From contig NZ_BCNB01000005.1 of NCBI RefSeq assembly GCF_001485575.1, positions 55,711-119,710 of the forward strand: DNA of 64,000 nt, in the 5' to 3' direction. The stretch's first letter is position 1. Every line of letters starts with the position of its first letter. A model generated the notes under the pieces. That model made no database searches. It was not told the origin of the DNA and saw nothing but the letters and a program-made list of their open reading frames with translations. Source of the DNA: Haloarcula sp. CBA1127. GTDB lineage: Archaea; Halobacteriota; Halobacteria; Halobacteriales; Haloarculaceae. The position numbers and the translations under genes were made by a program. Positions 35,463 through 53,982 of this stretch are shown here, piece by piece.

Positions 35463-35892
35463 ACCAAGCTATGACCGACCAGCCGTGACCGAGAAGGGTC
35501 CCGTATGTGACCCAACTTGTGGCACCTTCACAGGACAAGAGAGTGTACACTAGTTGAGACTGGTGCTCTCGATGCATACGGCTATGCTTCCCGCAGTTTC
35601 ATTCAAACGGCCGTGGCGAATCGCCAGAAGTAGTGTGATTTCACTGCTTCATCATCTACTTACTGACATGAAAATTACATATCAACCTATGCTAAAGAAG
35701 TTCACTGTACAAAGTTCGCGTACACGGCGTCGTCAAACGCGTGCTTGATCCTCACGAGCCGGCGTCCGGTGGATCTACTTGGCAGGGAGTCGAAGGTGGA
35801 ACTGACCGGTGAGTATGAACACTCGCCGCGGATTAAAGGTATAACACGTTTACATCGCTGAAGAAGGAGGCAGGAATCGGATCATGGGATTT
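35463..35892. other. no gene recognised
   Basis: Between two IS remnants. A short frame ending YGYASRSFIQTAVANRQK near 35628 may be the tail of a lost gene, but it is too short to assign. Confidence 0.3.
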
Positions 35893-36070
35893 TCTATCTG
35901 GGTTAGCGGGCCGCCTGAGTGCCTACACTACTGAAAGTCTCCGGAATTCGGCGATATGGTCAGTAGTGCAATAGGGACGAGTGATTGAGAGCTATTCTGG
36001 AGCGATTTCCGACCGACGATTCGTCCAAATACACGCATTACAGCCCCGCTAAACCCGCCGTAGTCTCATC
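35893..36070. repeat. solo IS end, copy of 40983-41160
   Basis: About 175 bp repeat the segment upstream of the IS1595-like transposase at 40030-40902, in the same orientation. The last 60 bp are nearly identical (ATTCGTCCAAATACACGCAT, TACAGCCCCGCTAAACCC). No transposase accompanies this copy. Confidence 0.55.
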
Positions 36071-36664
36071 TTCCACCCATGTTTCCGTGATATATAAGTG
36101 CTACAAACCAACATCATTTGCATTGGTCAGGATCAGAGAGATGAGGGAGTACGCTCTATGCGTTGCCTCCTAACTAATTCGGGGCGAGATCAGCCCCCGA
36201 CATTAGCTAAATACTTATCGTAGTTCTAAATACGGAAGGTATGGATTTTAGCCGCCACGATATTCTCTAAGCCGACTATTTCAGATATGTAGTGAGCTTA
36301 TCGATAGCTAAAACACTGATATCGACAATCAAATTTATTACTAGCGTTATAGCGTGGTCGAATTTGATATTCCGAAATCTCGTACTCTGGTGGAGTTTCC
36401 GGCTTACACACTCAGAATATCACTTTCAGACTTGTTACCAACCCACTCAAAATAATGCATGTACACTTGTTATTTAAGGCAACAATTGGTTAAACTTGTT
36501 TTCTCAAGCACAATTCAAATAACAGACAAGGATGGATTGATAAGGACGGGCTCCGTAACGACTGACTGCCAGTTTTGGGCTATCTCCACGAGTTCTCCGT
36601 GTATATTCGAGTTTAGTAGAAATATGGATTAGGATTTTAATTAGATGCTGTCACAAAAGAGTCC
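36071..36664. other. AT-rich stretch without genes
   Basis: Strongly AT-rich, with no coding composition on either strand. Bounded by IS remnants. Confidence 0.4.
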
Positions 36665-37560
36665 TCACACCGTGATCACGGTATTACCCGGATTGTCTCC
36701 CCGTTCGTAGTGGTGATTGCGATGACGAGACGCAGACACTGCCCGATGATAAACCTGTACCCGTGCGTGGACGCGGCCTCGGGCGAACACACGCCCGAGG
36801 CCGCAGTCCTTCACTGATTCGTTGGTTCGTTTAACTCCAGTGCGGCGATTATACATTTCGTCGATCGATTGTTTCAGCTGAACGTCTTCACTGTGTTCGG
36901 TGATGTGGTCTTCGACCCTATATTCGATATCTTTCGAGTCGGCGGTGTTTCGCGCGTTGTAGGGAGCGACTGGCACGACCACCTACTAGCTGCAGGGGTC
37001 GTGCCAGTCGAGCGTATCGTAGGCACTGTCACTGACCATCCAGATCACCGTGGCGACGGCGAGCGCGTCACGTATGGCACGTATCGCCGTCTCTTCTGGT
37101 GCTTGTTTGCTCTCTGTGAACTCCGCTGCGATTGGTATCTCTTGCCTGGTTAAGACGATCGTACAGCCGTAGTGGTAGTTGTATTGGTCTTCGGTTGGAT
37201 CATAGCACTTTGAGGCGTCTGGGTCGGTTGGCATCGCTCTCACATCAGTCGAATCGATGCTGTGGGTCAAGTCGAGCAGGCCGCGGGCGGCAGTCTGCTC
37301 GACGAGACTGATGAGGACATCGCCAACCATGTGTTCAAGATCAATAAGGAAACGATGGACCGCCGTCGAGAGATGCGGTCGATCGAAGCCACAGCACAAC
37401 TGAACAATCGCTTCCGAAGCTCTCGCTCAACGGGTCGAATACCGTAGATGTCTTTGTAGTAGCAGTGAAGGAAGCCACACATCAGTTCGGGTGGTTCAAG
37501 ATCTCGTGTTCGCCCTGTCTCCGCTGGGGCGAACACGTCGTACTCCAGTAGAAACCCAAG
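36665..37560 (-). pseudogene. decayed DDE transposase
   Basis: Pieces in shifting frames read from the 5' end at ~37,540: FAPAETGRTRDLEPPELMCG, FLHCYYKDIYGIRPVERELR, then SIDSTDVRAMPTDPDASKCY, SDSAYDTLDWHD and VKDCGLGRVFARGRVHARVQ. Several frameshifts break it. A second fragment of the same family lies at 53602-53888. Confidence 0.65.
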
Positions 37561-37760
37561 TCAAGATACAAACAGCGGAACTTTCTCGGTAGCCGCTGCA
37601 TTTAAGAACTCGTTGACCGTATTTATGTTCTGCAGGGATTTAGAGTTCGTGGACACGGTTTCCAAACCCTGCTGCTTCGCACGTGACGTATTCTATAACA
37701 GGCTCGCTTAAAGAAGGGATTTATATGCAAAGATAACTAACATTATTAGCATCGGGAGAA

Positions 37761-38810
37761 ATGATAGACTTTATATACAAAAACGCTAATGTAGATAATG
37801 TGAAGAGAAGAAAAATTCTTCAGGCCATGGGAGCGGGTGGCATAACTCTATCAATGACGGGAATTGGATCAGCGAAGTCGGGCGATAGCTCTCCGAAGGA
37901 GAGTGAAGTGGTTGAAATGGAAGAGTTAGAAGGTAAGAGTCTGGTAAAAGCCCGACAAGACGTCATGTCTAATGAGGATGTAAAGAGATTAATTCAGGAA
38001 GCATCTAGAATGGGCTGGAGGTCACAGTCAAACGAAATGAGTGTGGTGAGAAAGACTGTCGAAACACAAGATGAGACCGGAACGATCGATACAGCTGTCA
38101 TCACATTTGAAAGTCTAGAAAAACGTGGAAGAGGTAAGGACGGAGACCAGGAGAACCGAGACGACCCAGAGTCGGCCGATGCTGACGAAATGTACCTTCA
38201 TTTCGATGTGAATGTGGATGAAGAGGTGCAATCAGCTCTTGTGGGGAGTGTAAACCGGCCAGAACTAATACATTTTAAATATGACCACTCATCTGATAAA
38301 GAATCAGAAAGTACGAGTAGTTCGCTTTTCGATCAAGTGACTGTCCATTACGTGGGCAACAATCAGGTACAGTCAGACACAATAGTTTCCGAGGAGCCTA
38401 GATATAAAACAGACACAAATTCCAAAGCCACCACTCAATCAACAGAGTATTGTGAGGTGGATGCTAAGGTATACGATACTCCGTCCCTAGACGAACCGTG
38501 TGTCGATACGGAGTGTATAATCAAAACTTATGCAGGTACGGTTGTCACTGTCGTTAGCTGTCTAGCTGGTGGTGGACTACTGTGTCTAGCTGGTCTCAGC
38601 CTAAATGGTGCCTCTCTGGTGGACTGTATCTCGTGTAATACTGTTTATGAGGGGCGTATCTCCTTTGAAAAGGAGTGGCTGGAGGAACAAGCACCCAGAC
38701 AAGTTGACGATCCTTGTTCCGAGCTTACATCTGAACATGTTATGGCAATATCAAAATGTGGAGTCCAAAAGGCCCCAACTAAAGAGAGCTATAACTACCC
38801 AGAGTGCTAA
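37761..38810 (+). CDS. halocin C8-like precursor (secreted, Cys-rich end)
   Basis: A 349-residue protein. KRRKILQAMGAGGITLSMTG (~14-34) resembles a twin-arginine signal. A ~200-residue acidic middle follows. The C-terminal ~120 residues hold ten cysteines around a glycine-rich hydrophobic helix (VVTVVSCLAGGGLLCLAGLS ... DCISC). Halocin C8 precursors have this plan: Tat signal, immunity-like N-terminal part and a ten-cysteine microhalocin released by cleavage. The assignment rests on layout and cysteine count, not on alignment. Secreted proteases and a 49-residue membrane protein lie nearby. The gene is AT-rich, suggesting recent transfer. Confidence 0.6.
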   Translation: MIDFIYKNANVDNVKRRKILQAMGAGGITLSMTGIGSAKSGDSSPKESEVVEMEELEGKSLVKARQDVMSNEDVKRLIQEASRMGWRSQSNEMSVVRKTVETQDETGTIDTAVITFESLEKRGRGKDGDQENRDDPESADADEMYLHFDVNVDEEVQSALVGSVNRPELIHFKYDHSSDKESESTSSSLFDQVTVHYVGNNQVQSDTIVSEEPRYKTDTNSKATTQSTEYCEVDAKVYDTPSLDEPCVDTECIIKTYAGTVVTVVSCLAGGGLLCLAGLSLNGASLVDCISCNTVYEGRISFEKEWLEEQAPRQVDDPCSELTSEHVMAISKCGVQKAPTKESYNYPEC

Positions 38811-39029
38811 CCTGACTTTATGATATTCTCCAGTCACTGACTTTGTAGCATAACCCTTTATTTTCTGAAGAGGCGCCCACTTTTTGTTATCAATTTTGTG
38901 TTATATGAATCTTGTACGTAATATATAGGAACCCTTTGAGCGGATGTATTTCCTTGTGAATAGTAGTATGAGGACGTAAGGGTGTATTTGGATCGGTATT
39001 TTTAATATCAATCTTCTATATTTACTAGT

Positions 39030-39179
39030 ATGGAAAAAAAGCAGGGTCTTATAATTACTAGCTTAGGATTTTTTTTGGTAGGCTCTTTCTCTATCTATTT
39101 TAATTCTGGGCCCAAATATATCCAGATCGGATATCTTATTTTGGGTTTTTGGGCCCTCATGAAGTACATTAGATTATGA
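39030..39179 (+). CDS. small two-helix membrane protein (49 aa)
   Basis: ATG 39030 gives MEKKQGLIITSLGFFLVGSF and a second hydrophobic part GYLILGFWALMKYIRL. Both segments span a membrane. It is the next gene after the halocin-like precursor, where a dedicated immunity protein might sit. Too short for usual gene finders; coding is supported by the hydrophobic pattern only. Confidence 0.45.
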   Translation: MEKKQGLIITSLGFFLVGSFSIYFNSGPKYIQIGYLILGFWALMKYIRL

Positions 39180-39250
39180 GACGTGATTAATTAGACAAGA
39201 TCGAATAACAGTATCAAAGTCATATAATCTTTCGTAAAATCGTTTCAGCG

Positions 39251-39937
39251 GTGTTTAGTTAAGCGTGAAAAGTGAGGCGGACGGGTTTCTTGCTGGTTCA
39301 TGACAGAAATCAGCCGCCTCAGCGGACATAGAGACTGGATTGATTTGGATTTTGTGGAGCGCGAGCGGACACCCGAGTCGGCGATGGCGTTGGGTATTCA
39401 ATCGCATGTTGCAGGACTGTCGTTGTCGAATACCGTCGAATTACTCGAAGATCTGGGCGTCAACGTAGTCGCAAAGCCGTCCACGATTGGGTGCAGAAGG
39501 CCGATCTACAGCCAGAATCCGGGAAATCTCCGAATCAGATTGCACTGGACGAAACAGTGATTCAAATCAACGATCAGCAATTCTGGCTGTACGCCGCTGC
39601 CGATCCGCGGTCAAACGAACTGCTTCACGTTCGGCTGTTTGCGACGACTACGACCACCCTCACAGAATTTTCCTGAGCGAACTTCGGCACAAACACAATG
39701 TCGAAACTGCCGTCTTTCTCGTCGATGGCGCTCAACACCTTCAAACTGCACTGCAACGAGCTGGACTCCGATTTCAGATGTGTCGCCACGGAAATCGGAA
39801 CGCTGTCGAACGGATTTTTCGAGAGCTGAAGGGCCGAACCTTGTCGTTTTCAAACTGCTTCAGGCACGTCGAACCGGAAACCGCCGAAAACTAGTTGCAG
39901 ACCTTCGCTCGATGGCTTAATGCTACTGACTAAACAC
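39251..39937 (+). mobile_element. degenerate IS6-family element
   Basis: Short inverted ends GTGTTTAGT and ACTAAACAC bound a transposase in pieces: TEISRLSGHRDWIDLDFVER, then (shifted) NQIALDETVIQINDQQFWLY, FLVDGAQHLQTALQRAGLRF and RHGNRNAVERIFRELKGRT. The DDE residues are all present but at least two frameshifts separate them. Such small IS6 (ISH14/15-like) elements are common in haloarchaea. Confidence 0.75.
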
Positions 39938-40029
39938 TACCATCGTTTGAGCAGCAGATATTTTTTCTTCGCTCTTGAAGCGTAGATTGTTGGTAAATCA
40001 TAGCGCAGTTTGGAGGATGGTTCTCAGTG

Positions 40030-40902
40030 TTCCTTTCATCGGTTTTCGATAGACGTGTCGACGGAGCTGGAATGCTCTGTGATACGGCTGAGGTTGTCCT
40101 TAGAGACGCCTCGATGGGGCGAGAGCTGATCGCGCCACCGATCCGGGCTCTTGCAGGTATTGACGTGCACATTGTCGTCGACGTATTCACCGTCTCTGTG
40201 GACGACGTATTCGCGCTCGAATGCATCGTCTTCGTCGAGTGATTCGTACGCCTGAAAGCCGTCCGTGTAGACAGTCAACCACTCCTCTTTCCGGTCAACA
40301 AGTAGGAGTCGAATCGTCGATTCGTCGGCGCCTTTCGCTGGGATCACGTAGCGGTCGCCGGTACCGCGATCCGCAAGAATAAATACGGGTAGCTTATCCT
40401 ATTCGTACGATCCCCATCCGCACATGGACAGGTCACGCGAGTGCGACGGTCGGTCGCGCCCGGGACCTTTTTTCGACTTTCACGTACAGTTCGTCGATCT
40501 TAACTGGGCCTTCGAGTTGTGGGTGAGGCGCGTCCAGCGCCCGTAAGAAGCGTTGGACGCCACGGTACACTGTCTTGTAGGAGACATCGATCTCCACGTC
40601 TAGCTGGCGAAGACTGATGTTGAGCGGATGTAGGTGTAGATGGCGAGAAGCCACCTCTGGAGTGAGACTGCTGAGTGTTCGACAACGGTGCCAGTCTGAT
40701 CGTTGAACGTGCGGTCGCAATTCTTACAGCGGTATCGCTGAAATGCCCGATAGCTGCCGTACCGAATCATAGATTCACCAAGACAGCGTGGGCAATAGAC
40801 GCCGTCACGCCAGCGAACCTGCTTGCACAGATCGCGGCGCGACGCTCCGAGACGAGTGTCTTGATTGGCATCATCGTTCGTCGGGTGGCGTGGTCGCGTC
40901 AT
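40030..40902 (-). pseudogene. decayed IS1595-like transposase
   Basis: ATG 40902 gives MTRPRHPTNDDANQDTRLGA and a zinc ribbon CPRCLGESMIRYGSYRAFQR...CKNC, typical of the IS1595 group. The rest is shifted: LRQLDVEIDVSYKTVYRGVQ, VKIDELYVKVEK and DGEYVDDNVHVNTCKSPDRW. Several frameshifts make it inactive. The element end upstream (40983-41160) recurs alone at 35893-36070. Confidence 0.65.
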
Positions 40903-40982
40903 CCTTGCCTGATGTGATTTCCAGTTACTGCTGGGTCCTGACCAACGTTGCAGAAGGAGACTGGAATGAGGTAGAGATAACT

Positions 40983-41160
40983 CGATCTGGGGTAGCGCGG
41001 TGTCTGAGTGGCTACACTCTTGGAAGTCTTCGAAATTCGGCGATACAATCAGTTGTACAACAGAATCGAGTGATTGAGAGCTAACCTGGAGTGATTTCCG
41101 ACCGATGATTCGTCCAAATACACGCATTACAGCCCCGCTAAACCCGTTGTAGTCTCAACT
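40983..41160. repeat. IS end repeated at 35893-36070
   Basis: Upstream end of the IS1595-like element. It matches 35893-36070 over about 175 bp in direct orientation. Confidence 0.55.
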
Positions 41161-41368
41161 TGGGGAGTGTAAACGCCGCATACTCGGTCACCCGGCCCCG
41201 TCGCCACAGCGGTTGGGACGCCAGTAATGACGATATGCGCCCACCGAACAATAGATCGTACGCCCCGAGACTCCCTGAAATCGGAACGACGATTACGATT
41301 CAGTCCGACTCGGACAGAGACTCCCCCTCACTGTATCTGATTGCTAATCTTATGACATATCAAAGTCT

Positions 41369-42181
41369 CTATGTAGTAGTGTAAGCTTCAAAGCTGATAG
41401 AATCTTCTCGGAAATCTTGGTAGGTGTCTTTCGCCCATCTAATAGACTCCAGATTCTCCGAAACGACTAACCCTCGAATCGTCCCGATCTCATCGTGAAT
41501 GACTATGACTACTTTTTTAGTTGGTTCTAAGACAGTAATAAGTCCAATTGGGGGAGCCTCTTGACTGACCCGTATCGAGTAATCTCCACTGTTATAGAGT
41601 GTATCTATCTTCCCGTTAAAATTAGATTGGAGATATTCGATTGCTCTGTGTGGGAGAATAAATTCAGCGGTCAAGTCATCAACAGTAGTCTTCTCAAGAT
41701 GGAGATCAACTTGACTAGGGAAGATTGTTGGTAAAGCCCCATAGATATGTGTGGCTTCAGAAACGGACGATTGCAACTTCTTATATATCTCTTCCACTAC
41801 ATGATTATTGGTTGATATAATCTCCGCTCCTTGGAAAAGAGATGGGTGGAGAACTTTGTTGATCGGTTGTTTTGTATCGAATACTTCCCTATTTTGAAAT
41901 ATGGAGTTTATCGTCTTTGAGAACCGACGATATTCCTCGAAAATCAACATTCCAAATGGGGTTAGTTGATACCCATCATCTTGTTTCTCTATTAAGCCAT
42001 ATTCCTCCATAGAGTTGAGTCCACGATAAATTGTAGATTGTGACTTGTCCAGCTCTTGGTTAAGTTCCTTCTGGCTAGCAGACGAGTTCGACAAGAAGTC
42101 GAAGAAGTCAGCACGTTGATGGACCTCAGAAATGAACTTCGCAAGGGAGGGGGATGGAGGTACCATAGTATGAATTGACAT
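41369..42181 (-). CDS. wHTH regulator of the borosin operon
   Basis: 270 residues. The N-terminal winged helix (SASQKELNQELDKSQSTIYR, GLNSMEEYGLIEKQDDGYQL) and a ~170-residue C-terminal sensor half (EAEFILPHRA-like region, VVIVIHDEIGTIRGLVVSEN, SIRWAKDTYQDFRE) fit the haloarchaeal FilR1/TrmB-like regulators. It is last in the minus-strand precursor-methyltransferase-peptidase operon, 46 bp after the peptidase gene. It probably senses a ligand or the product and controls the locus. Confidence 0.75.
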   Translation of the reverse strand: MSIHTMVPPSPSLAKFISEVHQRADFFDFLSNSSASQKELNQELDKSQSTIYRGLNSMEEYGLIEKQDDGYQLTPFGMLIFEEYRRFSKTINSIFQNREVFDTKQPINKVLHPSLFQGAEIISTNNHVVEEIYKKLQSSVSEATHIYGALPTIFPSQVDLHLEKTTVDDLTAEFILPHRAIEYLQSNFNGKIDTLYNSGDYSIRVSQEAPPIGLITVLEPTKKVVIVIHDEIGTIRGLVVSENLESIRWAKDTYQDFREDSISFEAYTTT

Positions 42182-42227
42182 CAGATTACATTAGTTTTAT
42201 CTTAAATTATATTATACTTCTATCCAG

Positions 42228-44276
42228 TCAACCCTTACTTTTTTCCATTATATTCTCAAAAATGACTGTCCACTTATCAAGTTCGTTGGTCAGTTTCCCA
42301 TGTGTTGAGGTTCCTACGCCATGACCTGCATCTTCTGTAGTCCGGAGAAGGACTGGATTATCTCCTTGCGCCTTTGCCTGCATCTTTGCAGCCATTTTCC
42401 AAGCATGGTATGGAAGGACACGTGTATCACCGAGAGCAGTACGAAATAGCATTGTAGGATATTCAGCCTCGCTGATGCTGTGATATGGAGAATATGATTT
42501 CAGATGCCGATACGCACATTCCTCATTCGGATCACCATACTCCGAGACCCAAGTTTCCCCGATACCAATCTGGTCAAATCGGACCATGTCTAGGAGAGGG
42601 ACCTCACAGATAGCGGCGCTAAATAGTTCTGGCCGTTGCATTACAGTCGCGCCAACAGTAAGCCCACCATTGCTCTCGCCGGTGATTGCCAGCTTTTCAG
42701 GCTTGGTATAGCTGTTCTTGATGAGATGTTCGGCGAAATTGATTGTGTCGTCGAAAGTCCGTTGTTTTTGATCTTGCATTCCCTGTTGATGCCACGATTC
42801 TCCGAACACACCCCCTCCTCTAATATTGGGCTGTAGATAGATACCACCGTCACGAAGAAACGGAATGATAAACCGATCAAAGCTCGGAGTCATCGTCACG
42901 CCAAATCCACCATAAACGTTAATCAGGGCTGGGTTAGGAGTCGCAAGATCTATACCTTTATTATAAACAATAAAGAATGGAATCTCAGTCCCATCATCAG
43001 CTGAAAACCAGCGCTGACTGACCTCAAATTCCGATTGATAATCCATTTCCGGCTCATTTATGACTGTTTTAGAGAGAAAACGGCCACAATTAGACTCAGT
43101 GGCCACTTGATTAATCTGAATCTCTATTGTGGATGGTGAGGCCACAAAAGATGTGAGGTTGAAGACAAATGCGTTCGAACTCGCCGTCAAAGTATTTGGC
43201 ATTAGAGTACAATAGTCTGGCAATTCCACCGGTTGAGCATATCGTCCTGAGCGATTGTAAACGGTAAGCCGCGTGCTAGCGTTCTTTTGATAGTGGCCGA
43301 CAATATAGTCATCAAGCACCGAGGCGTTGCAGAGAATCCGATCGGTTTGGAGTATACGCTTACTGTTGGCCTGAAGGGAGTCTCTATCAGGATATGTTTC
43401 GGAAGCGGAGAGAGAAATCAATTCATAGGTTAATGACTGGACATCGGTAAGTAGATACGCTTCACCGCTGTCCGTGTATTTCACCGGTCTAAAATGATCA
43501 TCACTCTTGGCGTATATAGGATCGAACCCGGATGGGGAAAGATGATATAACTCGGTTCGATTCGTACCATCATGTAGTGCAACGATCGCGTTATCCGCTC
43601 CTTTTTGTGAAACAATTTGTGGCCACAACCGTTGTGCTATATCATCCACGACGGTGTTAGATTCAGCAGTATTTATATCGTAGTAATCGATGGTTTTTTT
43701 AATTCGTCCCTCGGTGCTGGGCTCCGTTTGAAGATAGTAAAATCCGTCTTCACCCCACGCAAACCCACCAGCGTTTGTCCTACCACAATTGGGCTCTACC
43801 AACACAGTCTGGCGCCCGCTATGAACGACGTGAATATCATACTGCTCACGACCACCCTGTGATACGCCAAACGCAACGTATTCACCGTTTGGAGAAGGAA
43901 CAAACCAATCAATTGCACTCAGATCATTATCCAAGTCTTCTATTGGGTCACAGATGGTCGTCGGTGAATCAGTAAGGGTTTGTCGAAACGTTAACTCTGA
44001 TTGGTCCTTACCTTCTGTTCGCCCTAGGTGGTAATATCCGTTTTCTGTCGGGTTTGTTGTCCCTGAGTCCGGGATATTAGTGGTGAATTCGGGCTGCTTC
44101 TTGAGATAATCCCGGGTCTCTGTTGAAAGAATATTCTCAGTATGGGAATTCTGTTTCCTTACCCATTCGAGAACTTCTTCGTCTTCGTTTTCGAGCCATT
44201 GGTATGGATCAGAGACGACCTCACCATAAAAAATGTCGCTCGTGTTAGACCGTCTTGTCTCGGGCGGATTGTCCAT
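42228..44276 (-). CDS. prolyl oligopeptidase (S9) of the borosin locus
   Basis: 682 residues with the full prolyl oligopeptidase plan. The N-terminal FYGEVVSDPYQWLENEDEEV is followed by a beta-propeller (~70-410) and an alpha/beta-hydrolase domain. The latter has the nucleophile box TGESNGGLTVGA and the histidine in TEDAGHGVGTSTHGK. No signal peptide, so it acts in the cytoplasm. POP enzymes cut after proline in short peptides. In fungal omphalotin biosynthesis the POP OphP follows the N-methyltransferase. Here it is 20 bp downstream of the methyltransferase gene, so leader removal or cyclisation is the natural role. The precursor has a single proline, in its last residues. Confidence 0.88.
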   Translation of the reverse strand: MDNPPETRRSNTSDIFYGEVVSDPYQWLENEDEEVLEWVRKQNSHTENILSTETRDYLKKQPEFTTNIPDSGTTNPTENGYYHLGRTEGKDQSELTFRQTLTDSPTTICDPIEDLDNDLSAIDWFVPSPNGEYVAFGVSQGGREQYDIHVVHSGRQTVLVEPNCGRTNAGGFAWGEDGFYYLQTEPSTEGRIKKTIDYYDINTAESNTVVDDIAQRLWPQIVSQKGADNAIVALHDGTNRTELYHLSPSGFDPIYAKSDDHFRPVKYTDSGEAYLLTDVQSLTYELISLSASETYPDRDSLQANSKRILQTDRILCNASVLDDYIVGHYQKNASTRLTVYNRSGRYAQPVELPDYCTLMPNTLTASSNAFVFNLTSFVASPSTIEIQINQVATESNCGRFLSKTVINEPEMDYQSEFEVSQRWFSADDGTEIPFFIVYNKGIDLATPNPALINVYGGFGVTMTPSFDRFIIPFLRDGGIYLQPNIRGGGVFGESWHQQGMQDQKQRTFDDTINFAEHLIKNSYTKPEKLAITGESNGGLTVGATVMQRPELFSAAICEVPLLDMVRFDQIGIGETWVSEYGDPNEECAYRHLKSYSPYHSISEAEYPTMLFRTALGDTRVLPYHAWKMAAKMQAKAQGDNPVLLRTTEDAGHGVGTSTHGKLTNELDKWTVIFENIMEKSKG

Positions 44277-44296
44277 GAGTAAATATAATGGGCTAT

Positions 44297-45139
44297 TTAG
44301 CTATCTCTGACAGTTATCTCCTCTAGATGGTCTTCTGATCGAACTTCTTGTAACAGCTCCTCATTTTGGAGGTCTCGTTCATTGATCGGAGGTAGATGCA
44401 GAATGTAATAACCCTGGTCGAGTATCGGAGCCATCTCCTCAAGATTTGAAAGCTCAAACTCGTGTTTTTGTGATTCAGCAATTGGGTAGGTAGCTGTTTG
44501 GAGTAAGTACCCGATATGATCCTCCGGATAGAAATTCTGGAGATATTCTTTGAAACGGGTGAATCGACTTTCTTTACTTCGCTTTTCTGTATGGCGATCT
44601 GTCTCCACCACGCTAACCTGCCAAATCATTGCTGGAACTTCCGGATTAAGTTCCCATTCTCGAAGTAGTAAATCAGTCGCCTCAAACATTTGAACACCAT
44701 TTGCCGCAGGATCAAAGGCAATATCTGAATACACACAATCAATAGCAGATATGCCTGGCTGAACTTCGACGTTCAATCCTTGTTCTCGCCCCTGTCGAAT
44801 GACACTCCGACTTGGATTGACAAATATCATCGGATGCCCGTAGAGAGCAAATGTAATCGGTCCATCGACCTCAGTAGCTCCTCTAAGAACCTCTTCTGAC
44901 ATCCGGTCGTATGTAGCAACCCGGTCCTCGCCCTCGTTATATTCCCGGTTAAGCATAACTACATCTTCGGTATAATTCTCTTTGATATGGTTTTCGACCA
45001 TCGGTTGACCGTCAAGTAGGTAGACCCGCTCAGAAGCTTGGAGTGCGTTTTCAGCTTCGCGAGTGAGTTGAGTGTAGCCCACCATTCCAGTCCCGATGAT
45101 GTATATGTCAATTGGGTTCTCTTGGGTGCTTGTAGTCAT
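44297..45139 (-). CDS. borosin-type peptide alpha-N-methyltransferase
   Basis: 280 residues of the tetrapyrrole-methylase fold. IIGTGMVGYTQLT (~14-26), ALYGHPMIFVNPS (98-110), VQPGISAIDC, FDPAANGVQMFEATDLLLRE and MIWQVSVVE match the SonM/OphMA group almost motif for motif. Y67, R73 and Y77 have exactly the spacing of OphMA Y66, R72 and Y76, the residues that deprotonate the amide, and Y100 matches Y98. Such enzymes methylate backbone amides of a ribosomal peptide using SAM. Unlike fungal OphMA it is not fused to its substrate; a SonA-like precursor is encoded 24 bp upstream, so it is a split borosin system. Confidence 0.87.
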   Translation of the reverse strand: MTTSTQENPIDIYIIGTGMVGYTQLTREAENALQASERVYLLDGQPMVENHIKENYTEDVVMLNREYNEGEDRVATYDRMSEEVLRGATEVDGPITFALYGHPMIFVNPSRSVIRQGREQGLNVEVQPGISAIDCVYSDIAFDPAANGVQMFEATDLLLREWELNPEVPAMIWQVSVVETDRHTEKRSKESRFTRFKEYLQNFYPEDHIGYLLQTATYPIAESQKHEFELSNLEEMAPILDQGYYILHLPPINERDLQNEELLQEVRSEDHLEEITVRDS

Positions 45140-45163
45140 TGATAAAAATATGAGGCTATATTC

Positions 45164-45445
45164 TCAAGCCTCGGATGATGGCAGGACGATACCTGCGATC
45201 TGGATACCGTTCGCCCGCTTCTCGACGATCTCATTCAGCTTGTTCTGATTACCAGACTTCAGTGCTTTAGCCTCCTCTTTAGTCAGGTCATCATACTCCT
45301 GGAGAATGGTTTCCGGATCTGATTTGAAACGATGCGCGAAGGTCAGGTCACTCATCGATCGCTCGATGATGTCAACCACTGTTTGGTGCGACATTGCAAA
45401 CTGATGTGTGAATCGGTTGATGTTATAATTACTGGAAATTTTCAT
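45164..45445 (-). CDS. borosin precursor peptide, SonA-like (93 aa)
   Basis: Residues ~30-75 form the borosin-binding helical bundle. SDLTFAHRFKSDPETILQEY followed by DDLTKEEAKALKSGNQNKLN parallels SonA (YKQNPEAVM..HGLTDEQ). The last ~16 residues, ANGIQIAGIVLPSSEA, are the likely core, rich in Ile/Val/Ala/Gly as in known borosin cores. The first ~30 residues (MKISSNYNINRFTHQFAMSH) are extra compared with SonA; an internal ATG at residue 18 is a possible start. First gene of the operon. The core has not been shown to be methylated. Confidence 0.8.
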   Translation of the reverse strand: MKISSNYNINRFTHQFAMSHQTVVDIIERSMSDLTFAHRFKSDPETILQEYDDLTKEEAKALKSGNQNKLNEIVEKRANGIQIAGIVLPSSEA

Positions 45446-45658
45446 CTCAATGGATAGAGAGTCTTTCGTCCGATGGTAGTATTTTCAATCTATGGGACTT
45501 ATTTTATTCTCTGAAAAGGTACGGTCATTCACACTGGCTTGCGAATTTGTCAAGTCAACGATTGGGCGTCCTGCGTTCAGATCTTTCCGTAGCTTTAGAT
45601 AAGATAGTCTCAGGTGATGGATTCTTAAGAGCGTCCACCGAATAGGAGAGCGCAAACG
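45446..45658. promoter_or_regulatory. divergent promoter region of the borosin locus
   Basis: A 213-bp gap between the precursor gene (minus) and the ABC exporter (plus). It includes TTATTTTATTC at 45489-45499 and TTCTTAAGA near 45621-45629, plausible TATA-like elements for the two directions. The regulator encoded at the operon end could act here. Confidence 0.4.
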
Positions 45659-46666
45659 ATGCACCCCCGCTCAACTGAGCCTCCAAAACATGATCCTGTA
45701 GTTTCGGTCACGGACCTCACAAAACATTATACAGGAGAAGCAGGACGGGTCACAGCCGTTGATGGCGTTTCCTTTGATATTCAGCCCGGCCAGATTGTTG
45801 GACTCCTCGGCCCAAACGGTGCCGGCAAAACAACAACCGTCAAAACTGTTCTCGGGCTCATCACTCCCACACGTGGCAGTGTTTCCATTCACGGCATTCC
45901 TGTACATGAAGCCCGTTCACGCACATACAAGTACGTGGCCGCTGTCCTCGAAGGTGCACGCAACGTCTATTGGCGGTTGAGCGTCCGGGAAAATCTTGCG
46001 TTTTTCGCCGGCCTCCACGGCATCGACCCGCAGGCACGTGTCGACAGACACGAGGAGATTATTAACACGCTCGGACTTACTCGAAAGGCAGACGAGCCGG
46101 CGAAAAATCTCTCGCGTGGCATGAAGCAAAAAGTCGCACTCGGCTGTGCACTCGCCCGCGAAACGCCCGTTCTTTTTCTTGACGAACCAATGCTTGGGCT
46201 TGATGTAGAAACAACCCGTGACCTCCAGGTCGAATTACAACGTCTCGTCCGGGAAGAGGACAAAACTATCGTGATTACGAGTCATGATATGGATATCATC
46301 GAAGCTGTCTGCAACCGTGTGATCGTCCTCAGTGATGGCGACATCGTCGCTGATGATTCCGTCGACAACTTGCTTGACGTCTTCCAGTCCCAATCGTACC
46401 GTATCCAACTGACCGAAAACCCGTCAGCACCTCTCCGGGAGCAACTCGATACCCGCTTCCAGCTTCTTGAATGGCAGACCGACGCTGACTCCATAGAATT
46501 CGAGATCACGCTTGCAGGCAGTGAGGAGTTCTACGAGTGTGTCGACGTGTTGCGAACGGCAGAGGCGACCATCCAGTCGTTCACTGAAATCGAGCCCGAT
46601 CTGGAGGATATCTTCGTTAAGCTGACGACAGCTTCGTCATTGTCTCCAGATGAGGTTGTGCCATGA
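45659..46666 (+). CDS. ABC exporter ATPase (borosin locus)
   Basis: 335 residues. Walker A is LGPNGAGKTTTVKTVL, signature LSRGMKQKVALGCALA and Walker B PVLFLDEPMLGLD with a C-terminal ~90-residue extension, as in CcmA/NatA-type exporters. It overlaps the permease by 4 bp. It is divergent from the borosin precursor and is the natural exporter or self-resistance pump for the product, though it could belong to another function. Confidence 0.88.
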   Translation: MHPRSTEPPKHDPVVSVTDLTKHYTGEAGRVTAVDGVSFDIQPGQIVGLLGPNGAGKTTTVKTVLGLITPTRGSVSIHGIPVHEARSRTYKYVAAVLEGARNVYWRLSVRENLAFFAGLHGIDPQARVDRHEEIINTLGLTRKADEPAKNLSRGMKQKVALGCALARETPVLFLDEPMLGLDVETTRDLQVELQRLVREEDKTIVITSHDMDIIEAVCNRVIVLSDGDIVADDSVDNLLDVFQSQSYRIQLTENPSAPLREQLDTRFQLLEWQTDADSIEFEITLAGSEEFYECVDVLRTAEATIQSFTEIEPDLEDIFVKLTTASSLSPDEVVP

Positions 46667-47436
46667 ATCGGCATCTCACCTTGTTTCGAGTGATTGCGAG
46701 TAAATCAGTGACGCTCTCGCGTCGCTATCTCGTGAATACAGTAGTGGGATTCGTAACGTTGTATGTGTTTTTCGCACTCGTTTTTTTCGGTGGGCGGTTT
46801 GTGGCGGAGGATTTGATTTCACGGTCAGTAGGGCTGCTTGTCGTCGGGTATTTCCTCTTCACGATGGCAGTATCGGCATATGCCGATCTCACACATGACT
46901 TGACTGACGAGGCACAGTGGGGGACACTGGAGCAGTTGTCGATGTCTCCATTTGGCTTTACCGAGGTTGTGGCGGTCAAGACTCTGGTTAACCTCTTAGG
47001 CACATTTGCTACCGGCATCGTTCTTCTAGTGTTGATGATGGTAACAACAGGGGCGTGGCTTTTTGTTGCACCGCTTTCGCTTGTCGTTCTCGGTGTGCTG
47101 ACGTTACTCCCTGTGGTCGGTCTCGGGTTCATTTTTGGTGGGGTGGCGCTTGTCTATAAACAAATTGAGAAGATGTTCCCGCTGATCCAACTCTCGTTTG
47201 CAGCCCTGATCGCCTTGCCAGTCGAGCAGTATGCTCTGTTGAAGCTTCTTCCAATGTCACTGGGGAGCCACTTGTTGCAACGAGTGATGACGGATGGAAT
47301 CCGCGTGTGGGACCTTCCAGCATTCGACCTTGGGGTATTGGTCGGGCAGTCAGTTGCCTACCTAGCGGTTGGGGTATTTGTCTTCCGGGTTGGAACAGCT
47401 AAAGCACGCAAACAGGGTATTCTTGGGCACTATTAA
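46663..47436 (+). CDS. ABC-2 type permease (borosin locus)
   Basis: 257 residues with six membrane helices, such as VVGFVTLYVFFALVFFGGRF, GTFATGIVLLVLMMVTTGAW and LTLLPVVGLGFIFGGVALVY. The cytosolic EQLSMSPFGFTEVVAVKTL loop between helices 2 and 3 is typical of ABC-2 permeases and contacts the ATPase. It overlaps the ATPase gene by 4 bp. Confidence 0.85.
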   Translation: MNRHLTLFRVIASKSVTLSRRYLVNTVVGFVTLYVFFALVFFGGRFVAEDLISRSVGLLVVGYFLFTMAVSAYADLTHDLTDEAQWGTLEQLSMSPFGFTEVVAVKTLVNLLGTFATGIVLLVLMMVTTGAWLFVAPLSLVVLGVLTLLPVVGLGFIFGGVALVYKQIEKMFPLIQLSFAALIALPVEQYALLKLLPMSLGSHLLQRVMTDGIRVWDLPAFDLGVLVGQSVAYLAVGVFVFRVGTAKARKQGILGHY

Positions 47437-47937
47437 TTAGTGGGGCAGTGGCTTATACTGTGCTAGATACAGACGTTGAATCGGTGCTATGGAATGTCAT
47501 TTAATATTTCCCATATATTATAGCTTGAACTTACATGCTTAAACACAATCAGCATGACATAACAGGCGTACACTTGTAAGAATAATCTACGAGATACCCT
47601 TTCGCTTCTTCATGTTGCAAGATGCCACAGATTGGATCATAAATCAGCGCTGATTGAGTATTTCGATTGCCGTCCGGCACTCTCCAAACAGTTGCGCTTA
47701 GAGAGTCACAGTCACACAGATTAGTCAGTCTGGAGAGTACCGTGGTGGTGGCAGCGAGCCTCTTCGCCCGCACACCCTGCCCGCAAATCGATTCTGGCTG
47801 GACTCATCGACACGTCGCGAGTGAATCTGGGATATCTATACCGATACCAATAGTTCACCCTGTGGCGACACCGTTCCAGGCTAGTTGCACAAGTGACTAT
47901 TACGCGAAAGTAGTATAATTGGGAGTTGTTCGCTGAC
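47437..47937. other. intergenic, holds a shared 32-bp repeat
   Basis: No gene with convincing composition in 500 bp. It contains the repeat at 47550-47581, shared with 51429-51460. Confidence 0.35.
47550..47581. repeat. 32-bp repeat, copy 1
   Basis: CAGCATGAYATAACARSCGT followed by ACRCTTGTAAGA, matching 51429-51460 with about four differences. Both copies lie in gaps between genes. Confidence 0.5.
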
Positions 47938-48768
47938 TCAACCGAGGTTGCCTCTTGAAAGGCTGAGCAAACCCTCATAGTACGCAAAATAGAGAAGGAT
48001 AGGGAAAAGAGCAATTGCTACAACCGTAGCTATTGTCCAAGAGAGGAGATTCGCTGGATGCACTGCTACTGCAATGATCATTGACAGTCCTAACAGTCCG
48101 CACACAAATACACCGGCGGTGTATGCTGGTAGCGATGAAGATGGCTGAGTAGACCTCACTTGGCGACCAAGGTGATACAATGGAAGGGATAGAATCAACG
48201 TGACTGCTACAACGATATAGATCGCTGCAAAATGAGTCCAAGCGACGATTGAATCTGACTGAAGAATAAAAATTGAGCTTTGGACTAAATGTAGTGAGGC
48301 TAATCCTATAAACAGGACTGCTAGCCACTGGAGAGCCCGTTGCCGCGCTGATCCAAGTATAAAAGCTACAACTCCACTAACAGAGGCAATCTCCCATGGA
48401 AAGGCTGTTACAGGACGCCTCAGATCACCCTGGAGAATGCTCTGAAACCAGTGAGATACCGACCCTTTCAGTTCGATGAGGATAATCGGCAGCGCCAGCA
48501 CAATTACTTCAATACACACAATAGTCGCCACAGCTAACGAAGTCGGGAATTGATCCTGAATTAATGTGAGACCAGCAACTCCGCCAACAACTGCATACAC
48601 AGTACCACCTCCTATTAAGACCAATCCGAGTCTCGTTTGATCGACCAATCCATGTGCAATGAGTCCTAACACTATTGCGGCAACTCCTACAATATGTATA
48701 CAAATTGCAGTCTCTTTCTTATCCACATTCGACACTCCCATCGTTGCTGGTATCAATCTTTCACTCAA
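47938..48768 (-). CDS. polytopic membrane protein (276 aa)
   Basis: About eight membrane helices from AICIHIVGVAAIVLGLIAHG to ATVVAIALFPILLYFAYYEG. The true start may be the second ATG (residue 10, MGVSNVDKKE). The LSLPLYHLGRQVRST loop near the C-terminus resembles IPLYWWGTRLRNN in the protein at 53983-54747, and helix number and order match, so the two seem to be paralogues flanking the protease genes. Function unknown. Confidence 0.7.
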   Translation of the reverse strand: MSERLIPATMGVSNVDKKETAICIHIVGVAAIVLGLIAHGLVDQTRLGLVLIGGGTVYAVVGGVAGLTLIQDQFPTSLAVATIVCIEVIVLALPIILIELKGSVSHWFQSILQGDLRRPVTAFPWEIASVSGVVAFILGSARQRALQWLAVLFIGLASLHLVQSSIFILQSDSIVAWTHFAAIYIVVAVTLILSLPLYHLGRQVRSTQPSSSLPAYTAGVFVCGLLGLSMIIAVAVHPANLLSWTIATVVAIALFPILLYFAYYEGLLSLSRGNLG

Positions 48769-48829
48769 ACGATCCTATATATCCTCAGTCAATCCTTTTA
48801 TCTAACCATCTTGTCTGGAAATTAAGGTA

Positions 48830-49813
48830 CTAGGACGGATGCTCCTTTGCATCGTCCTCAGGGAGTGGATGTTCGAAAAGTCGCTCACCGGACTCCTCGC
48901 AAGTAACAGCAACCACCTTATGTGAACTACAGCAAGATTCTACGACTTCTTCACCCATTTGAATGTCTCCGCCTGTTGTCGGGCAGATTTCGATGAACAT
49001 TCGGAGCGCATTGAGAATCTGGCCCTTCTTTTCAAGCCGATAGTCGCTCCAGCCAGTGAGCTCTGACCGAAGTACGTGACAGGCGGCGATATCCGCGAGA
49101 AGCGCTGCTTTGGAGGGCCACTGTGAGACCAGTCGGTCATTAGTCTGTAATATTCTGGTATCACCTTGTTCAGTGAGTTCGAACTCTTTGCCCTCAGTTT
49201 CGATCCCAATAGTATCCGTAATTAACGCTGCCGTGATTTCCGTCGTATTCAGCGAATCAACCTCGTCTATCCAAGCGGTCTCAAAGGAGTCTGTGAGACA
49301 AAGATCATCTGAATCAGGGCACGGTTCGAGTATGCCGTGGTCAGTGAAGAATAGTTCAAGATCATCCTCCGATGGTGGTTGGTTATCCGCTGATGTGTGA
49401 TGTCCGTTAGTTGCAATGTCGTCAGTAGCCACTTCTGTGTCAGCTGTCTCCTCACTCCCGGTTCCAACAGCTGCTCTGTTGGAGGACGTGTCATCACCAG
49501 TCTCGATGTCGGCAAAGCCCGTAGCCAGCTCGGGTTCCGGGTCTTTCCCAAACCAGCGGAGCACCTCTGTAGGAAGATACCGCTTAGTGAGTGTCGGGGT
49601 TCCTGGCACGAGGTAGCCGCGCAGATAGATCAACCCGACTGAGATACCGAATCCAACGATCCCACCCAATTTTGATTTCCGGGCGATAGTAGATCCAAGT
49701 ATCGTTGCAATAGCTAGATTGAGGGCTGTACATGGCTCACACCGGTTCTCGCCAGTATATTCTGGTTGTCGGAGGGTATCTACTACATCTATGTCCATAC
49801 AACTCTTGCTCAT
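48830..49813 (-). CDS. conserved haloarchaeal membrane protein (327 aa)
   Basis: The N-terminal block RQPEYTGENRCEPCTALNLA carries a CxxC, followed by two hydrophobic segments (LAIATILGSTIA, IVGFGISVGLIYLRGYLVPG) and LTKRYLPTEVLRWF. I recognise this block from conserved haloarchaeal proteins. A long acidic linker and a globular end follow, with ALLADIAACHVLRSELTGWS and CPTTGGDIQMGEEVVESCCS. The cysteine-rich end could bind metal or form disulfides. It is divergent from the halolysin-like protease gene, 83 bp away. Confidence 0.7.
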   Translation of the reverse strand: MSKSCMDIDVVDTLRQPEYTGENRCEPCTALNLAIATILGSTIARKSKLGGIVGFGISVGLIYLRGYLVPGTPTLTKRYLPTEVLRWFGKDPEPELATGFADIETGDDTSSNRAAVGTGSEETADTEVATDDIATNGHHTSADNQPPSEDDLELFFTDHGILEPCPDSDDLCLTDSFETAWIDEVDSLNTTEITAALITDTIGIETEGKEFELTEQGDTRILQTNDRLVSQWPSKAALLADIAACHVLRSELTGWSDYRLEKKGQILNALRMFIEICPTTGGDIQMGEEVVESCCSSHKVVAVTCEESGERLFEHPLPEDDAKEHPS

Positions 49814-49896
49814 GTGTTGATAAGGTATTTAATTTTATATTTGACCAAGACATAAACCGCGATTCGGAACGATACCTATACAAACAACCACGCGGA

Positions 49897-51294
49897 ATGT
49901 CACACGATATAGTGTTCACAAGACGATCATTTCTTGAAAGCATTGCCGCAGGTAGTGCCGCCATAGGTACTGCTGGGACTGGACTTGCAGACGACCAGTC
50001 AATGGTCAATAACAAAGAAGTGTATATTGTCCTTGGCGATGGGGAAGGCCTAGGTGATCGGCTTGCAAGTAGAGGGTATAGAGTACTGCAGGAGTTGGCA
50101 GGAGGCTCACTCGTTCTAATTGTGGGTCCTAGAGACAGCGAAGACGACCTTCGGTCACTCCCCACCGTCAATGATGCTGTTGCAAACCAGACCTTTGAGG
50201 TCGGCAATCTCACACAGCAGACGAAGGGGTCTGTCTCGGATACAACATCACTGTCTGAACAGCAGTGGGACAAGGAACTGACAAATACGTTCGCCGCTCA
50301 CGACATCGCCACTGGTGATGGGACCACGCTTGCGGTTATTGACACTGGTGTTAGTCCCTCCCATCCAGATCTTGAATCGAGGGTTGATTTGGAACAAGGC
50401 CGATTGTTCCGAAACGGCCAAATCCACGCCGGACAGATACTTATCAGACCACATGAAGATGGAGAGTTCGGTAGGGATACGGTCGAACTGCCGGTCGGAG
50501 CTGATATCGACGGGCATGGCACCCATGTTGCGGGGATTGCCGCTGCCAATGGTACCGACTCCGGAATTATCGGCACTGCACCCGCTACAACGATAGTTCC
50601 ACTTCGGACGATGTTTTACAGACAAATCAGTGACCACTCCTCTGTGAAACAGATAACCGTAGCTGATACGCTGCACGCGCTAGACTATGCCGTCGAGATT
50701 GGGGCTGACGTGGTCAACATCAGTCTTGGAGCAGGACCGCTTTCCGCCTCTGTAACACGACAGAGATTGTTTTCCGCGTTTCGACGTGTGATTCAGCACG
50801 CGGTCAAACAAGGCACTGTTGTCGTTGTTGCTGGAGGAGATCAGGGAGCGGATTTTCACCAGGATCCTCCATATGAACTCCCCTCAGCGAACAGAGGCGT
50901 GATCAGTGTTGCCGCAACCGGGCCAAACGACAAACGTAGACACGACTCTAACTATGGGGACAATGTCATCGATGTCGCTGCGCCAGGTGGTGGGTATGAC
51001 ACACAAGAAAAAACGTGGAACGCAGATATCTCCGAATGGGGTATTCTATCGTCACTACCCAAGTATATCGGAGGCGAACAATACGGCTACAATGCTGGCA
51101 CATCAATGGCAGCCCCCCAAGTGACCGGACTTGCCTGTCTCATCCGCGAAATCGCGCCAGGGCTCCATCCCCGCCGTGTCAAGCAAGCTATCGAAAAAGG
51201 TGCAGTTGAACTCTCGGGAGAAAACACTGCTGGGCTTGGAGCAGGGCGTATCGACGCGATTAGGTCAATTGAACGTGTTTCTAGTCCACAATAA
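49897..51294 (+). CDS. halolysin-like secreted subtilase
   Basis: ATG 49897 is used because the twin-arginine signal (TRRSFLESIAAGSAAIGTAG) follows it; 55 codons upstream are not conserved. A propeptide of about 110 residues is followed by the subtilisin triad: Asp in LAVIDTGVSPSHPD, His in DGHGTHVAGIAAANG and Ser in YNAGTSMAAPQVTG. The oxyanion Asn is replaced or shifted (VVVVAGGDQGADF). Tat export of folded proteases is the haloarchaeal norm. It could mature the halocin-like or other secreted peptides. Length fits halolysins without a C-terminal extension. Confidence 0.88.
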   Translation: MSHDIVFTRRSFLESIAAGSAAIGTAGTGLADDQSMVNNKEVYIVLGDGEGLGDRLASRGYRVLQELAGGSLVLIVGPRDSEDDLRSLPTVNDAVANQTFEVGNLTQQTKGSVSDTTSLSEQQWDKELTNTFAAHDIATGDGTTLAVIDTGVSPSHPDLESRVDLEQGRLFRNGQIHAGQILIRPHEDGEFGRDTVELPVGADIDGHGTHVAGIAAANGTDSGIIGTAPATTIVPLRTMFYRQISDHSSVKQITVADTLHALDYAVEIGADVVNISLGAGPLSASVTRQRLFSAFRRVIQHAVKQGTVVVVAGGDQGADFHQDPPYELPSANRGVISVAATGPNDKRRHDSNYGDNVIDVAAPGGGYDTQEKTWNADISEWGILSSLPKYIGGEQYGYNAGTSMAAPQVTGLACLIREIAPGLHPRRVKQAIEKGAVELSGENTAGLGAGRIDAIRSIERVSSPQ

Positions 51295-51428
51295 GTAATT
51301 TATACCGTTATTTTCGGTGAACAGCGTGATTAGCGCAGTAGAGGCCTACTGAGATCTTGGTATTGGCATAGAATATTATGTCAAATATTATTATGGCATA
51401 TACTTGAATTTGCAAGATTAGATGTACA

Positions 51429-51460
51429 CAGCATGATATAACAACCGTACGCTTGTAAGA
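51429..51460. repeat. 32-bp repeat, copy 2
   Basis: Matches 47550-47581. Lies 100 bp upstream of the metallopeptidase gene. Confidence 0.5.
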
Positions 51461-51560
51461 TTGATTGGTTAGTGCTTCTGAGGACATTCTATGACGGATA
51501 ATCATGACAGAAAAAAGACTATATGGTTTGGGTTTAAATTGCTGATTGTAGTTCAAAGCT

Positions 51561-52886
51561 ATGAAACGACGAAACTTCATACAAGCAGCTGGATCGGCTA
51601 CCCTCTTCCCAATGGCTGTAGATACAGTATCGGCAGAATCAACAGAAGATATTAAAAAATCTGAGCAGCTAGTTATTGGGGTTAGTATAAACGATGACCG
51701 TTTAAGAAGTGAAGCAGATATACTTCGCTACCCTCCAATCATCACAGAAAAAAAGGGATATATTCGTGATTACAATGATCGCCGTATTTCTATTCAAGAT
51801 GACCAAATTTTAGCATATCGTGAAGATGGGGCTATCCAAACTGGAAAAAACGATTCAGTTGATATTACGGATCTCTCCGGACTACAACATGTAGAAGCAT
51901 CTAGTAAGGATGTTCAAAAACTTAAGCTAAGTCGAAGTAACAGGAACATATCCCTGGATATCAATGGAGAATCTACTACGGTTCCAGAACAAAGCAGTAA
52001 AACAGTAGAACTCAGTTCTACTAAGAATCCGGCCTCAATAGACATAACTAATCATGGAGTGATAAAATTATTTGCGCATAGAGATAAACATCTACTCCCT
52101 AAAAATAGCCGCCTTGGTCAAGACGTTATCAATGCCAGAGTTCGGGCGAAGAGGCAAGGATCTTCGGCAGACAAATTCATCTCCTCAGAAACAGTTGAGC
52201 GAGATGTTACCGAAATCCCAAGTATAAATGCAATCGCTGTAGCGGAAGAGCGCACTGGCAAATCCAGTCCAACCCAAAACAAGACACCACGAGCAGGTAC
52301 AAACAGTGTAGGTTGTATAGCTAATAATGTAGCATTTATTACTACTGAAAAGGGAGACAATAGAGATCCACAGTCACACTCAAACACCGTTGCTGATGTA
52401 TGGTCAAAGGATATTGAAGATGGATCTTGTGAATATCTACTCTCTACTTCAACGCCTGGTCAAACAGTCTCTCTCAGCGACCCAGATTCACCAGATGATG
52501 CTCTTGATCAATTAAAGAATAATTCAACTATTCAAGACATCCTTAGTGACAATACTAACGGTGTTGTTGTCTTGGATACGCGGCAATATCAATTAGAAGT
52601 TGGTGGCCAAGTTCATACAATAGGATCCGCTGGGCAGGATAATGCAATCGCATATATAACCCAGGATGGTGACGAAAAAGCCTCAACACACGAAGTCGGT
52701 CATTTATATGATGCGACTCATGAGCATGCGGAGAATTGGGGGTTAGCTGAATACACTACCGTCTCACGTTATGATATTGACACGTGCCATAACAACGAAC
52801 TTCAGCCTTTCTTGAAAAACCGATTTAGCTCATGTAATACAACAGACATTCGTAATCATATTGACTCGATATATGGCCGCGATTAA
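51561..52886 (+). CDS. secreted zinc metallopeptidase candidate
   Basis: 441 residues. MKRRNFIQAAGSATLFPMAV is a twin-arginine signal. The long middle is beta-rich and polar (DDQILAYREDGAIQTG, SLDINGESTTVPEQSSKTV). Near the end HEVGHLYDATHEH gives an HExxH zinc site followed by a third histidine, as in metzincin-like peptidases. Several cysteines lie in the last third. The gene is AT-rich. It may act with the neighbouring subtilase on secreted peptides; substrate unknown. Confidence 0.72.
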   Translation: MKRRNFIQAAGSATLFPMAVDTVSAESTEDIKKSEQLVIGVSINDDRLRSEADILRYPPIITEKKGYIRDYNDRRISIQDDQILAYREDGAIQTGKNDSVDITDLSGLQHVEASSKDVQKLKLSRSNRNISLDINGESTTVPEQSSKTVELSSTKNPASIDITNHGVIKLFAHRDKHLLPKNSRLGQDVINARVRAKRQGSSADKFISSETVERDVTEIPSINAIAVAEERTGKSSPTQNKTPRAGTNSVGCIANNVAFITTEKGDNRDPQSHSNTVADVWSKDIEDGSCEYLLSTSTPGQTVSLSDPDSPDDALDQLKNNSTIQDILSDNTNGVVVLDTRQYQLEVGGQVHTIGSAGQDNAIAYITQDGDEKASTHEVGHLYDATHEHAENWGLAEYTTVSRYDIDTCHNNELQPFLKNRFSSCNTTDIRNHIDSIYGRD

Positions 52887-52948
52887 TCACTAGACGGCGT
52901 CGGATCAGGTCGGCAGAATGACGACGTTGGAGCAGGAGACTTTGGAAT

Positions 52949-53888: not shown

Positions 53889-53982
53889 CCATCTCAGCGT
53901 TCACCCTGCTCTTTGGCGTGGGAACTGTTCTATGACACCCTCTTGGAGAAAGTTGATAAGGAACCGCAGCCAACAATGTCAT

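Follow-up and report, generated by a model that had tools for sequence, protein, structure and literature searches.

Within the literature covered, borosins, peptides with methyl groups on their backbone amides, have been described from fungi and bacteria. The closest described systems are the fused fungal borosins OphMA and dbOphMA with the prolyl oligopeptidase (POP) OphP, known from omphalotin and dendrothelin, and the type IV split borosin SonA/SonM of Shewanella oneidensis. Here we describe a probable archaeal locus of this kind. In the window, a 64,000-nucleotide stretch from Haloarcula sp. CBA1127, positions 41369-47436 very probably hold a split-borosin cluster, as judged from sequence comparison and modelled structures, with a 76-residue precursor, a separate methyltransferase (MT), a POP, an ATP-binding cassette (ABC) transporter and a regulator. 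This layout corresponds to the class 3 architecture given in a figure legend of PMC11395268, in which a borosin-binding domain (BBD) and the core share one protein and the MT is separate. Unlike the archaeal host here, the tree in the accessible part of that paper shades only fungi and bacteria.

Literature combining borosins and archaea yielded no archaeal borosin, although this coverage is partial and a prior mention is possible. Neither the accessible text of PMC11395268 nor that of the methyltransferase review PMC11285071 contains the word ‘archaea’, and ‘borosin’ and ‘N-methyltransferase’ are both absent from that of a survey of archaeal ribosomally synthesized and post-translationally modified peptides (RiPPs), among whose listed classes are YcaO, radical-SAM, lanthipeptide and lasso peptides (PMC12144867). 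The haloarchaeal class II lanthipeptides of the same survey are RiPP clusters from the same group of organisms, but rely on LanM thioether chemistry.

Six open frames make up the stretch, with gaps of 24 bp between precursor and MT, 20 bp between MT and POP and 213 bp between the divergent frames; the frame listing agrees in these gaps and in all strands with a preliminary description of the locus. Its features are as follows, G026 being the genome of a second Haloarcula species and L020 a Halobaculum locus.

45164..45394, minus strand: precursor gene, 76 residues from MSHQ (start taken from divergence; longer frame 45164-45445), with a profile match to SonA-type proteins
45212..45394, minus strand: leader, residues 1-61, BBD with five predicted helices (AlphaFold2; weak Foldseek/VIA matches)
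45179..45211, minus strand: predicted core, residues 62-72, NGIQIAGIVLP, at the position of the SonA core, exact N-terminal border left undefined
45167..45178, minus strand: predicted follower SSEA, after Pro72, judged by sequence and by the analogous fungal followers SVMSTE and SVVSSA (accessible part of PMC12235650)
45423..45432, minus strand: TATA-like GTAATTATAA, putative promoter element 28-37 nt 5’ of the MSHQ start, GTAnTTATAA being kept in G026
44297..45139, minus strand: borosin-family peptide backbone N-methyltransferase, 280 residues, activity predicted from sequence, tree and predicted fold
42228..44276, minus strand: POP (family S9), 682 residues, predicted post-proline cutter or cyclase by Pfam S9 and motif
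41369..42181, minus strand: predicted winged-helix regulator of the FilR1_middle/HVO_A0261 type (PF08350 1.5e-20, PF25213 4.6e-18)
45659..46666, plus strand: ABC transporter ATPase, predicted exporter (PF00005 2.4e-30; DrrA-like 2.1e-62, below cut-off)
46663..47436, plus strand: ABC transporter membrane protein, with a homologue in L020
41349..47581, no strand assigned: six-gene stretch common to the window and G026, in two aligned pieces of 83-84% DNA identity

Among PDB sequences, the MT is closest to the fungal enzymes, with dbOphM at 2.2e-29 and SonM lower at 1.9e-21. The residues Y67, R73 and Y77 and the YGHP motif (100-103) that had been pointed out earlier, the latter as ALYGHP, are present, and the three residues are conserved; the positions of OphMA Y66, R72, Y76 and Y98 are all retained. 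The active-site Arg and Tyr (OphMA R72 and Y76; SonM R67 and Y71) correspond to R73 and Y77, which are kept in 93 and 92 of 94 alignment rows, respectively. Sequence, tree and predicted fold all place the MT with borosin enzymes and outside the cobalamin/uroporphyrin methylases, as first proposed, and together with the SonA-type precursor profile this grouping supports the interpretation as an archaeal RiPP. The predicted fold slightly raised our confidence in it. The alternative that the protein is a tetrapyrrole (cobalamin or siroheme) methylase beside an unrelated small protein is contradicted by PDB comparison, tree (95/96) and fold, and by BLASTP scores over matched stretches (26 versus 126-131 bits) in a comparison with the genome’s own tetrapyrrole methylase-family proteins; we consider it extremely improbable and have dropped it. 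The predicted reaction of the enzyme is N-methylation of backbone amides in the C-terminal core of the precursor, using S-adenosylmethionine (SAM).

The precursor had originally been taken as 93 residues long, and the public plasmid record annotates yet another start (71 residues). Between the two Haloarcula species the first 17 codons of the longer frame diverge without constraint (dN 0.35, dS 0.30), the outer ATG is absent in G026, and from MSHQ onward dN is only 0.03. Because of this pattern the inner ATG (45394) is the likely start, giving 76 residues. A profile built from four haloarchaeal precursors outside Haloarcula picks this frame with E 1.9e-14, the runner-up among the window’s 925 stop-to-stop frames of at least 40 residues reaching 2.3, a recovery that exceeds chance. 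Furthermore, our precursor profile A6 picks out seven SonA-type sequences of the PDB (E 0.0029-0.0078), and the AlphaFold2 model has helices at residues 6-15, 17-25, 27-32, 39-47 and 50-61, followed by a tail (63-76) with pLDDT below 50; in Foldseek/VIA it matches the clasp region of OphMA and SonA. By its profile the precursor is a discrete SonA-type BBD protein, as had been claimed, and the five-helix model fits this; the fold matches would not be decisive by themselves. The core aligns with that of SonA, in agreement with the numbering of PMC8429565. A short Ile/Val/Ala core had been recognized from the start, but Pro72 had been overlooked; it lies four residues before the end and is one of two prolines, the other being Pro27 within the leader.

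This pair is not confined to the window. In whole-genome searches the MT was found in 2 of 146 family genomes, 7 of 392 in an order sample and 9 of 391 in a class sample that overlaps the former, and all nine MT-bearing genomes have a BBD-type frame at most about 300 nt away from it. At E 0.1, profile A6 recovers eight of these nine frames (G447 at 2.3e-6, G469 at 0.04), the ninth, in G418, being found only with a six-seed model (1.1e-4). Among the 146 family genomes, strong matches to the profile lie only next to the two MTs, and a further two, both weak (6e-4 and 9.5e-4), fall in long frames. A protein search returned 22 proteins, including metagenomic ones among whose tails are VVVIVIK and TIVVVVVF. 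In 13 chosen precursors the leaders hold 27% Asp plus Glu, and the last 14 residues 45% Val, Ile or Leu; this set omits two shorter copies (P0100 and P0103) as well as P0107-P0114, which are LigA-like or not clear precursors, and adds one Halobaculum precursor from L020. Across the other haloarchaeal genera the leader is constant and the core variable: the tail reads ...AAAVLVVVVNN in Haladaptatus, ...VSVTIIVRIR in Halovivax and ...STVVIIVVV in Salinilacihabitans, while Halobaculum has two precursors ending in ...DVLVAVVVTIARA and ...VYTITITYVSRKRD. Three Halobellus genomes carry the pair, and that of H. clavatus includes a BBD-type frame divergent from the MT (L003:9388-9741) with six tandem DDNIGYTGD(S) units, likely a haloarchaeal borosin precursor of the multi-core kind whose core is polar. 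5’ of the Halobaculum borosin genes lie two ABC genes that belong to the same family as ours (ATPase 6.4e-89, membrane protein 6.6e-62), and in Haladaptatus a major facilitator superfamily transporter follows 3’ of the MT. The membrane protein of the window itself has no Pfam or NCBIfam match, its L020 homologue matching ABC2_membrane_3 at 6.9e-7, just under the cut-off.

Viral contigs (32 stretches) and, with the single MT as query, genome contigs (15 stretches) gave no relative; with an MT alignment, the genome contigs yielded six loci, one of them haloarchaeal. In two plasmid relatives (H4 and H6) the MT protein is much longer, and none of the genes within 8.8 kb bears the name of a POP. 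Bacterial frames adjoining borosin-type MTs at L002:9622-9978 and L004:9470-9976 carry long tracts rich in Thr where the core is presumed to lie, the leader match of the latter being weak (E 0.15). Four longer MT relatives (P0065, P0069, P0087 and P0092) carry, fused to their N- or C-terminus, a BBD-like stretch, with matches of only E 2e-4 and 4e-4 in the first two, and would be fused counterparts of the same MT family.

Within Haloarcula, all six genes are retained in G026, where two pieces align (41349-45504 and 45519-47581), whereas the cluster flanks are rearranged and pieces of them are shared only at other places. Between the two species dN/dS is 0.027 for the MT, 0.15 for the POP, 0.13 for the predicted regulator, noted before as a winged-helix protein, and 0.17 and 0.13 for the ABC genes. 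The precursor has dN 0.03 against dS 0.17; over its few sites this dS falls far short of the 0.80 of the MT, and its last 45 coding bases show one difference. What sequence or model shows is the family to which MT and precursor belong, the conserved residues of the active site, the fold of the MT, a five-helix leader with a disordered tail, the retention of six genes together and, in other haloarchaea, a constant leader with a variable core.

Over the part compared (35300-54139, 18,840 bp), the window matches plasmid unnamed4 of Haloarcula sp. CBA1115, an isolate from solar salt, with 100% identity; the plasmid record annotates the cluster genes only as ‘hypothetical protein’, ‘SAM-dependent methyltransferase’, ‘prolyl oligopeptidase family serine peptidase’ and ‘ABC transporter ATP-binding protein’. 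To the left of the cluster, a 180-nt direct repeat (35893-36072 and 40982-41161, 84% identical) flanks a stretch with transposase-domain fragments (PF01609 1.3e-7 at 36989-37399; PF12760 6.3e-6 at 40603-41127). Such pieces could speak for a decayed or silent plasmid remnant that makes no product; with six genes all open, dN/dS of 0.03-0.17 in five of them and the constraint on the precursor, however, we hold this to be very improbable. The window also encodes a 349-residue protein (37761-38810) with, by eye, a twin-Arg-like N-terminus and a Cys-rich C-terminus, possibly secreted, for which no Pfam or NCBIfam match was found. An anti-phage defence role was considered and dropped, as PADLOC gave no match for the four cluster proteins tested.

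Several observations weigh against the split-borosin reading. The position of OphMA Y63, which we equate with SonM Y58 by its equal distance to the Arg, is Asn64 in our MT, and just 4 of 94 rows have a Tyr there; in SonM the substitution Y58F lowers kcat about 15-fold. The Tyr-Arg-Tyr spacing claimed earlier therefore stands for OphMA (Y66, R72, Y76) but not for the set tested in SonM (Y58, R67, Y71), and because Asn64 replaces Y58 we do not class the MT as SonM type IV in the narrow sense. Foldseek E-values for the precursor model are 1.7 or higher, and helical bundles match readily; NF038399 matches the precursor at E 1.9e-9 and 37.5 bits, below its 40-bit cut-off. The core is the same in the window, G026 and P0094, so that core variation rests on the other genera. 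The divergent arrangement that had suggested a shared 213-bp promoter region is real, but its length is not conserved, the G026 spacer being about 0.7 kb longer. At the cluster no leader protease was seen, and calling the pathway ‘complete’, as was done before, was too strong; the reading as a whole draws on sequence and models. Finally, the top PDB match of profile A6 is, ahead of SonA, a nitrile hydratase alpha-chain fragment (6lk7, 3.4e-5). Since the matching NCBI family is also named ‘Os1348 family NHLP clan protein’, the precursor could instead be of the nitrile-hydratase-leader or Nif11-like type, modified by other enzymes while the MT acts elsewhere. Yet SonA matches the same profile, none of the 11 annotated genes in 18.8 kb is named as a cyclodehydratase, lanthionine synthetase or radical-SAM enzyme (several are ‘hypothetical’), and the MT is the sole modifying enzyme seen at every such locus, though neighbours were not exhaustively searched; we regard that origin as improbable and favour a split borosin.

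What, then, would be the role of the POP? Like the omphalotin and dendrothelin systems, the Haloarcula cluster combines a POP with a short follower that contains serine, but unlike those fused borosins its MT and core are separate proteins; SonA/SonM, in turn, is bacterial and has neither the POP nor the ABC transporter added here. The enzyme is intact, as had been stated, with propeller and S9 domains (Pfam S9 E 3e-52), and has the S9 triad and P1 Trp of the OphP type (S535, D617, H652 and W576, by motif and alignment). It lies next to the MT in both Haloarcula species with 80% identity, and the next S9 match in the same genome reaches only E 1.3e-12 at 25% identity. In the accessible part of PMC12235650, OphP favours MeGly at P1, followed by Pro and then MeAla, and releases a short follower. 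Because these preferences include Pro and a short follower is dropped, a cut after Pro72 is the likely one, and a core ending in Pro before a four-residue tail is a layout that would fit a POP cyclase. By analogy, ring closure of the core is possible, and the POP may work like an OphP-type macrocyclase despite its nearer endopeptidase kin.

That kinship is the first of the points against such a role. The nearest relative of the POP is the bacterial prolyl endopeptidase 2bkl (1.9e-81) and not a characterized cyclase; among the cyclases named in the PDB table it matches PCY1 (6.3e-71) and then OphP (7zb0, 4.7e-55), and its predicted P1 is Pro rather than MeGly. OphP was inactive on one test peptide with Pro at P1, and far slower on unrelated test peptides than on its own substrate (both from the accessible part of PMC12235650). 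Of seven other haloarchaeal loci of about 20 kb each (L003, L010, L017-L021), only that of G026 has a POP adjoining the MT, ruling out that every such cluster has one; in three of seven other MT-bearing genomes tested a POP lies elsewhere in the genome, and related POPs (33-37% identity) occur in 10 of 144 family genomes where the MT was not found. It is thus quite conceivable, if a little short of an even prospect, that the pair makes an N-methylated peptide while the POP, as an ordinary peptidase, only degrades or trims peptides and forms no ring; its retention beside the MT, the distance to the next S9 protein and the layout of the core speak against this. POPs are also known to act on class III lanthipeptide leaders (accessible part of PMC10885120).

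The pairing of a split precursor with POP and exporter, initially presented as the novelty, is not unique either. On plasmid p155_2 of Bradyrhizobium sp. 155 (L039:3692-6763), a small BBD-type protein ending in ...QVAFRVIRIRNIRIRFGV and a borosin-type MT (dbOphM E 1.3e-55) adjoin an S9 peptidase; in this case the peptidase is convergent (33% identity over 249 residues), the core is Arg-rich, and there are a TauD dioxygenase upstream and an additional MT. An S9-type peptidase frame (PF00326 6.5e-25) also adjoins a borosin-type MT in Nocardia beijingensis (L007:10785-12716), and in a Gemmatimonadaceae locus (L005) a POP lies about 2 kb from the MT with other long frames between, a weak case.

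We propose that the BBD leader would dock on the MT and guide the core into the active site, where methyl groups from SAM would be set stepwise onto its backbone amides. A separate protease would remove the leader, and the POP would then act at Pro72 of the N-methylated NGIQIAGIVLPSSEA, releasing SSEA; this step could be a hydrolysis or a transamidation that closes a ring of about 10-11 residues. Export of the product would fall to the ABC pair, and the winged-helix protein, which is kept in G026, likely regulates the cluster. Our bolder proposal, which we advance tentatively and with more doubt than confidence, is that within an old haloarchaeal branch Haloarcula independently built the fungal recipe, in which the peptide is methylated before the POP cuts at the last core residue and closes the ring, so that NGIQIAGIVLP would give rise to a cyclic, N-methylated peptide of about 10-11 residues that is exported. 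Since archaeal RiPP clusters have already been expressed in Haloferax volcanii (accessible part of PMC12144867), this prediction is directly testable.

The better-supported new point, judging from the sequences, is the haloarchaeal clade of split borosins itself. Present in at least six haloarchaeal genera, such a clade, whose leaders are acidic and whose cores are very hydrophobic, would bring ribosomal backbone N-methylation to the third domain of life and to enzymes adapted to molar salt. The Haloarcula cluster, with only six genes, offers a compact member of this clade that comes with a candidate release or cyclization enzyme.
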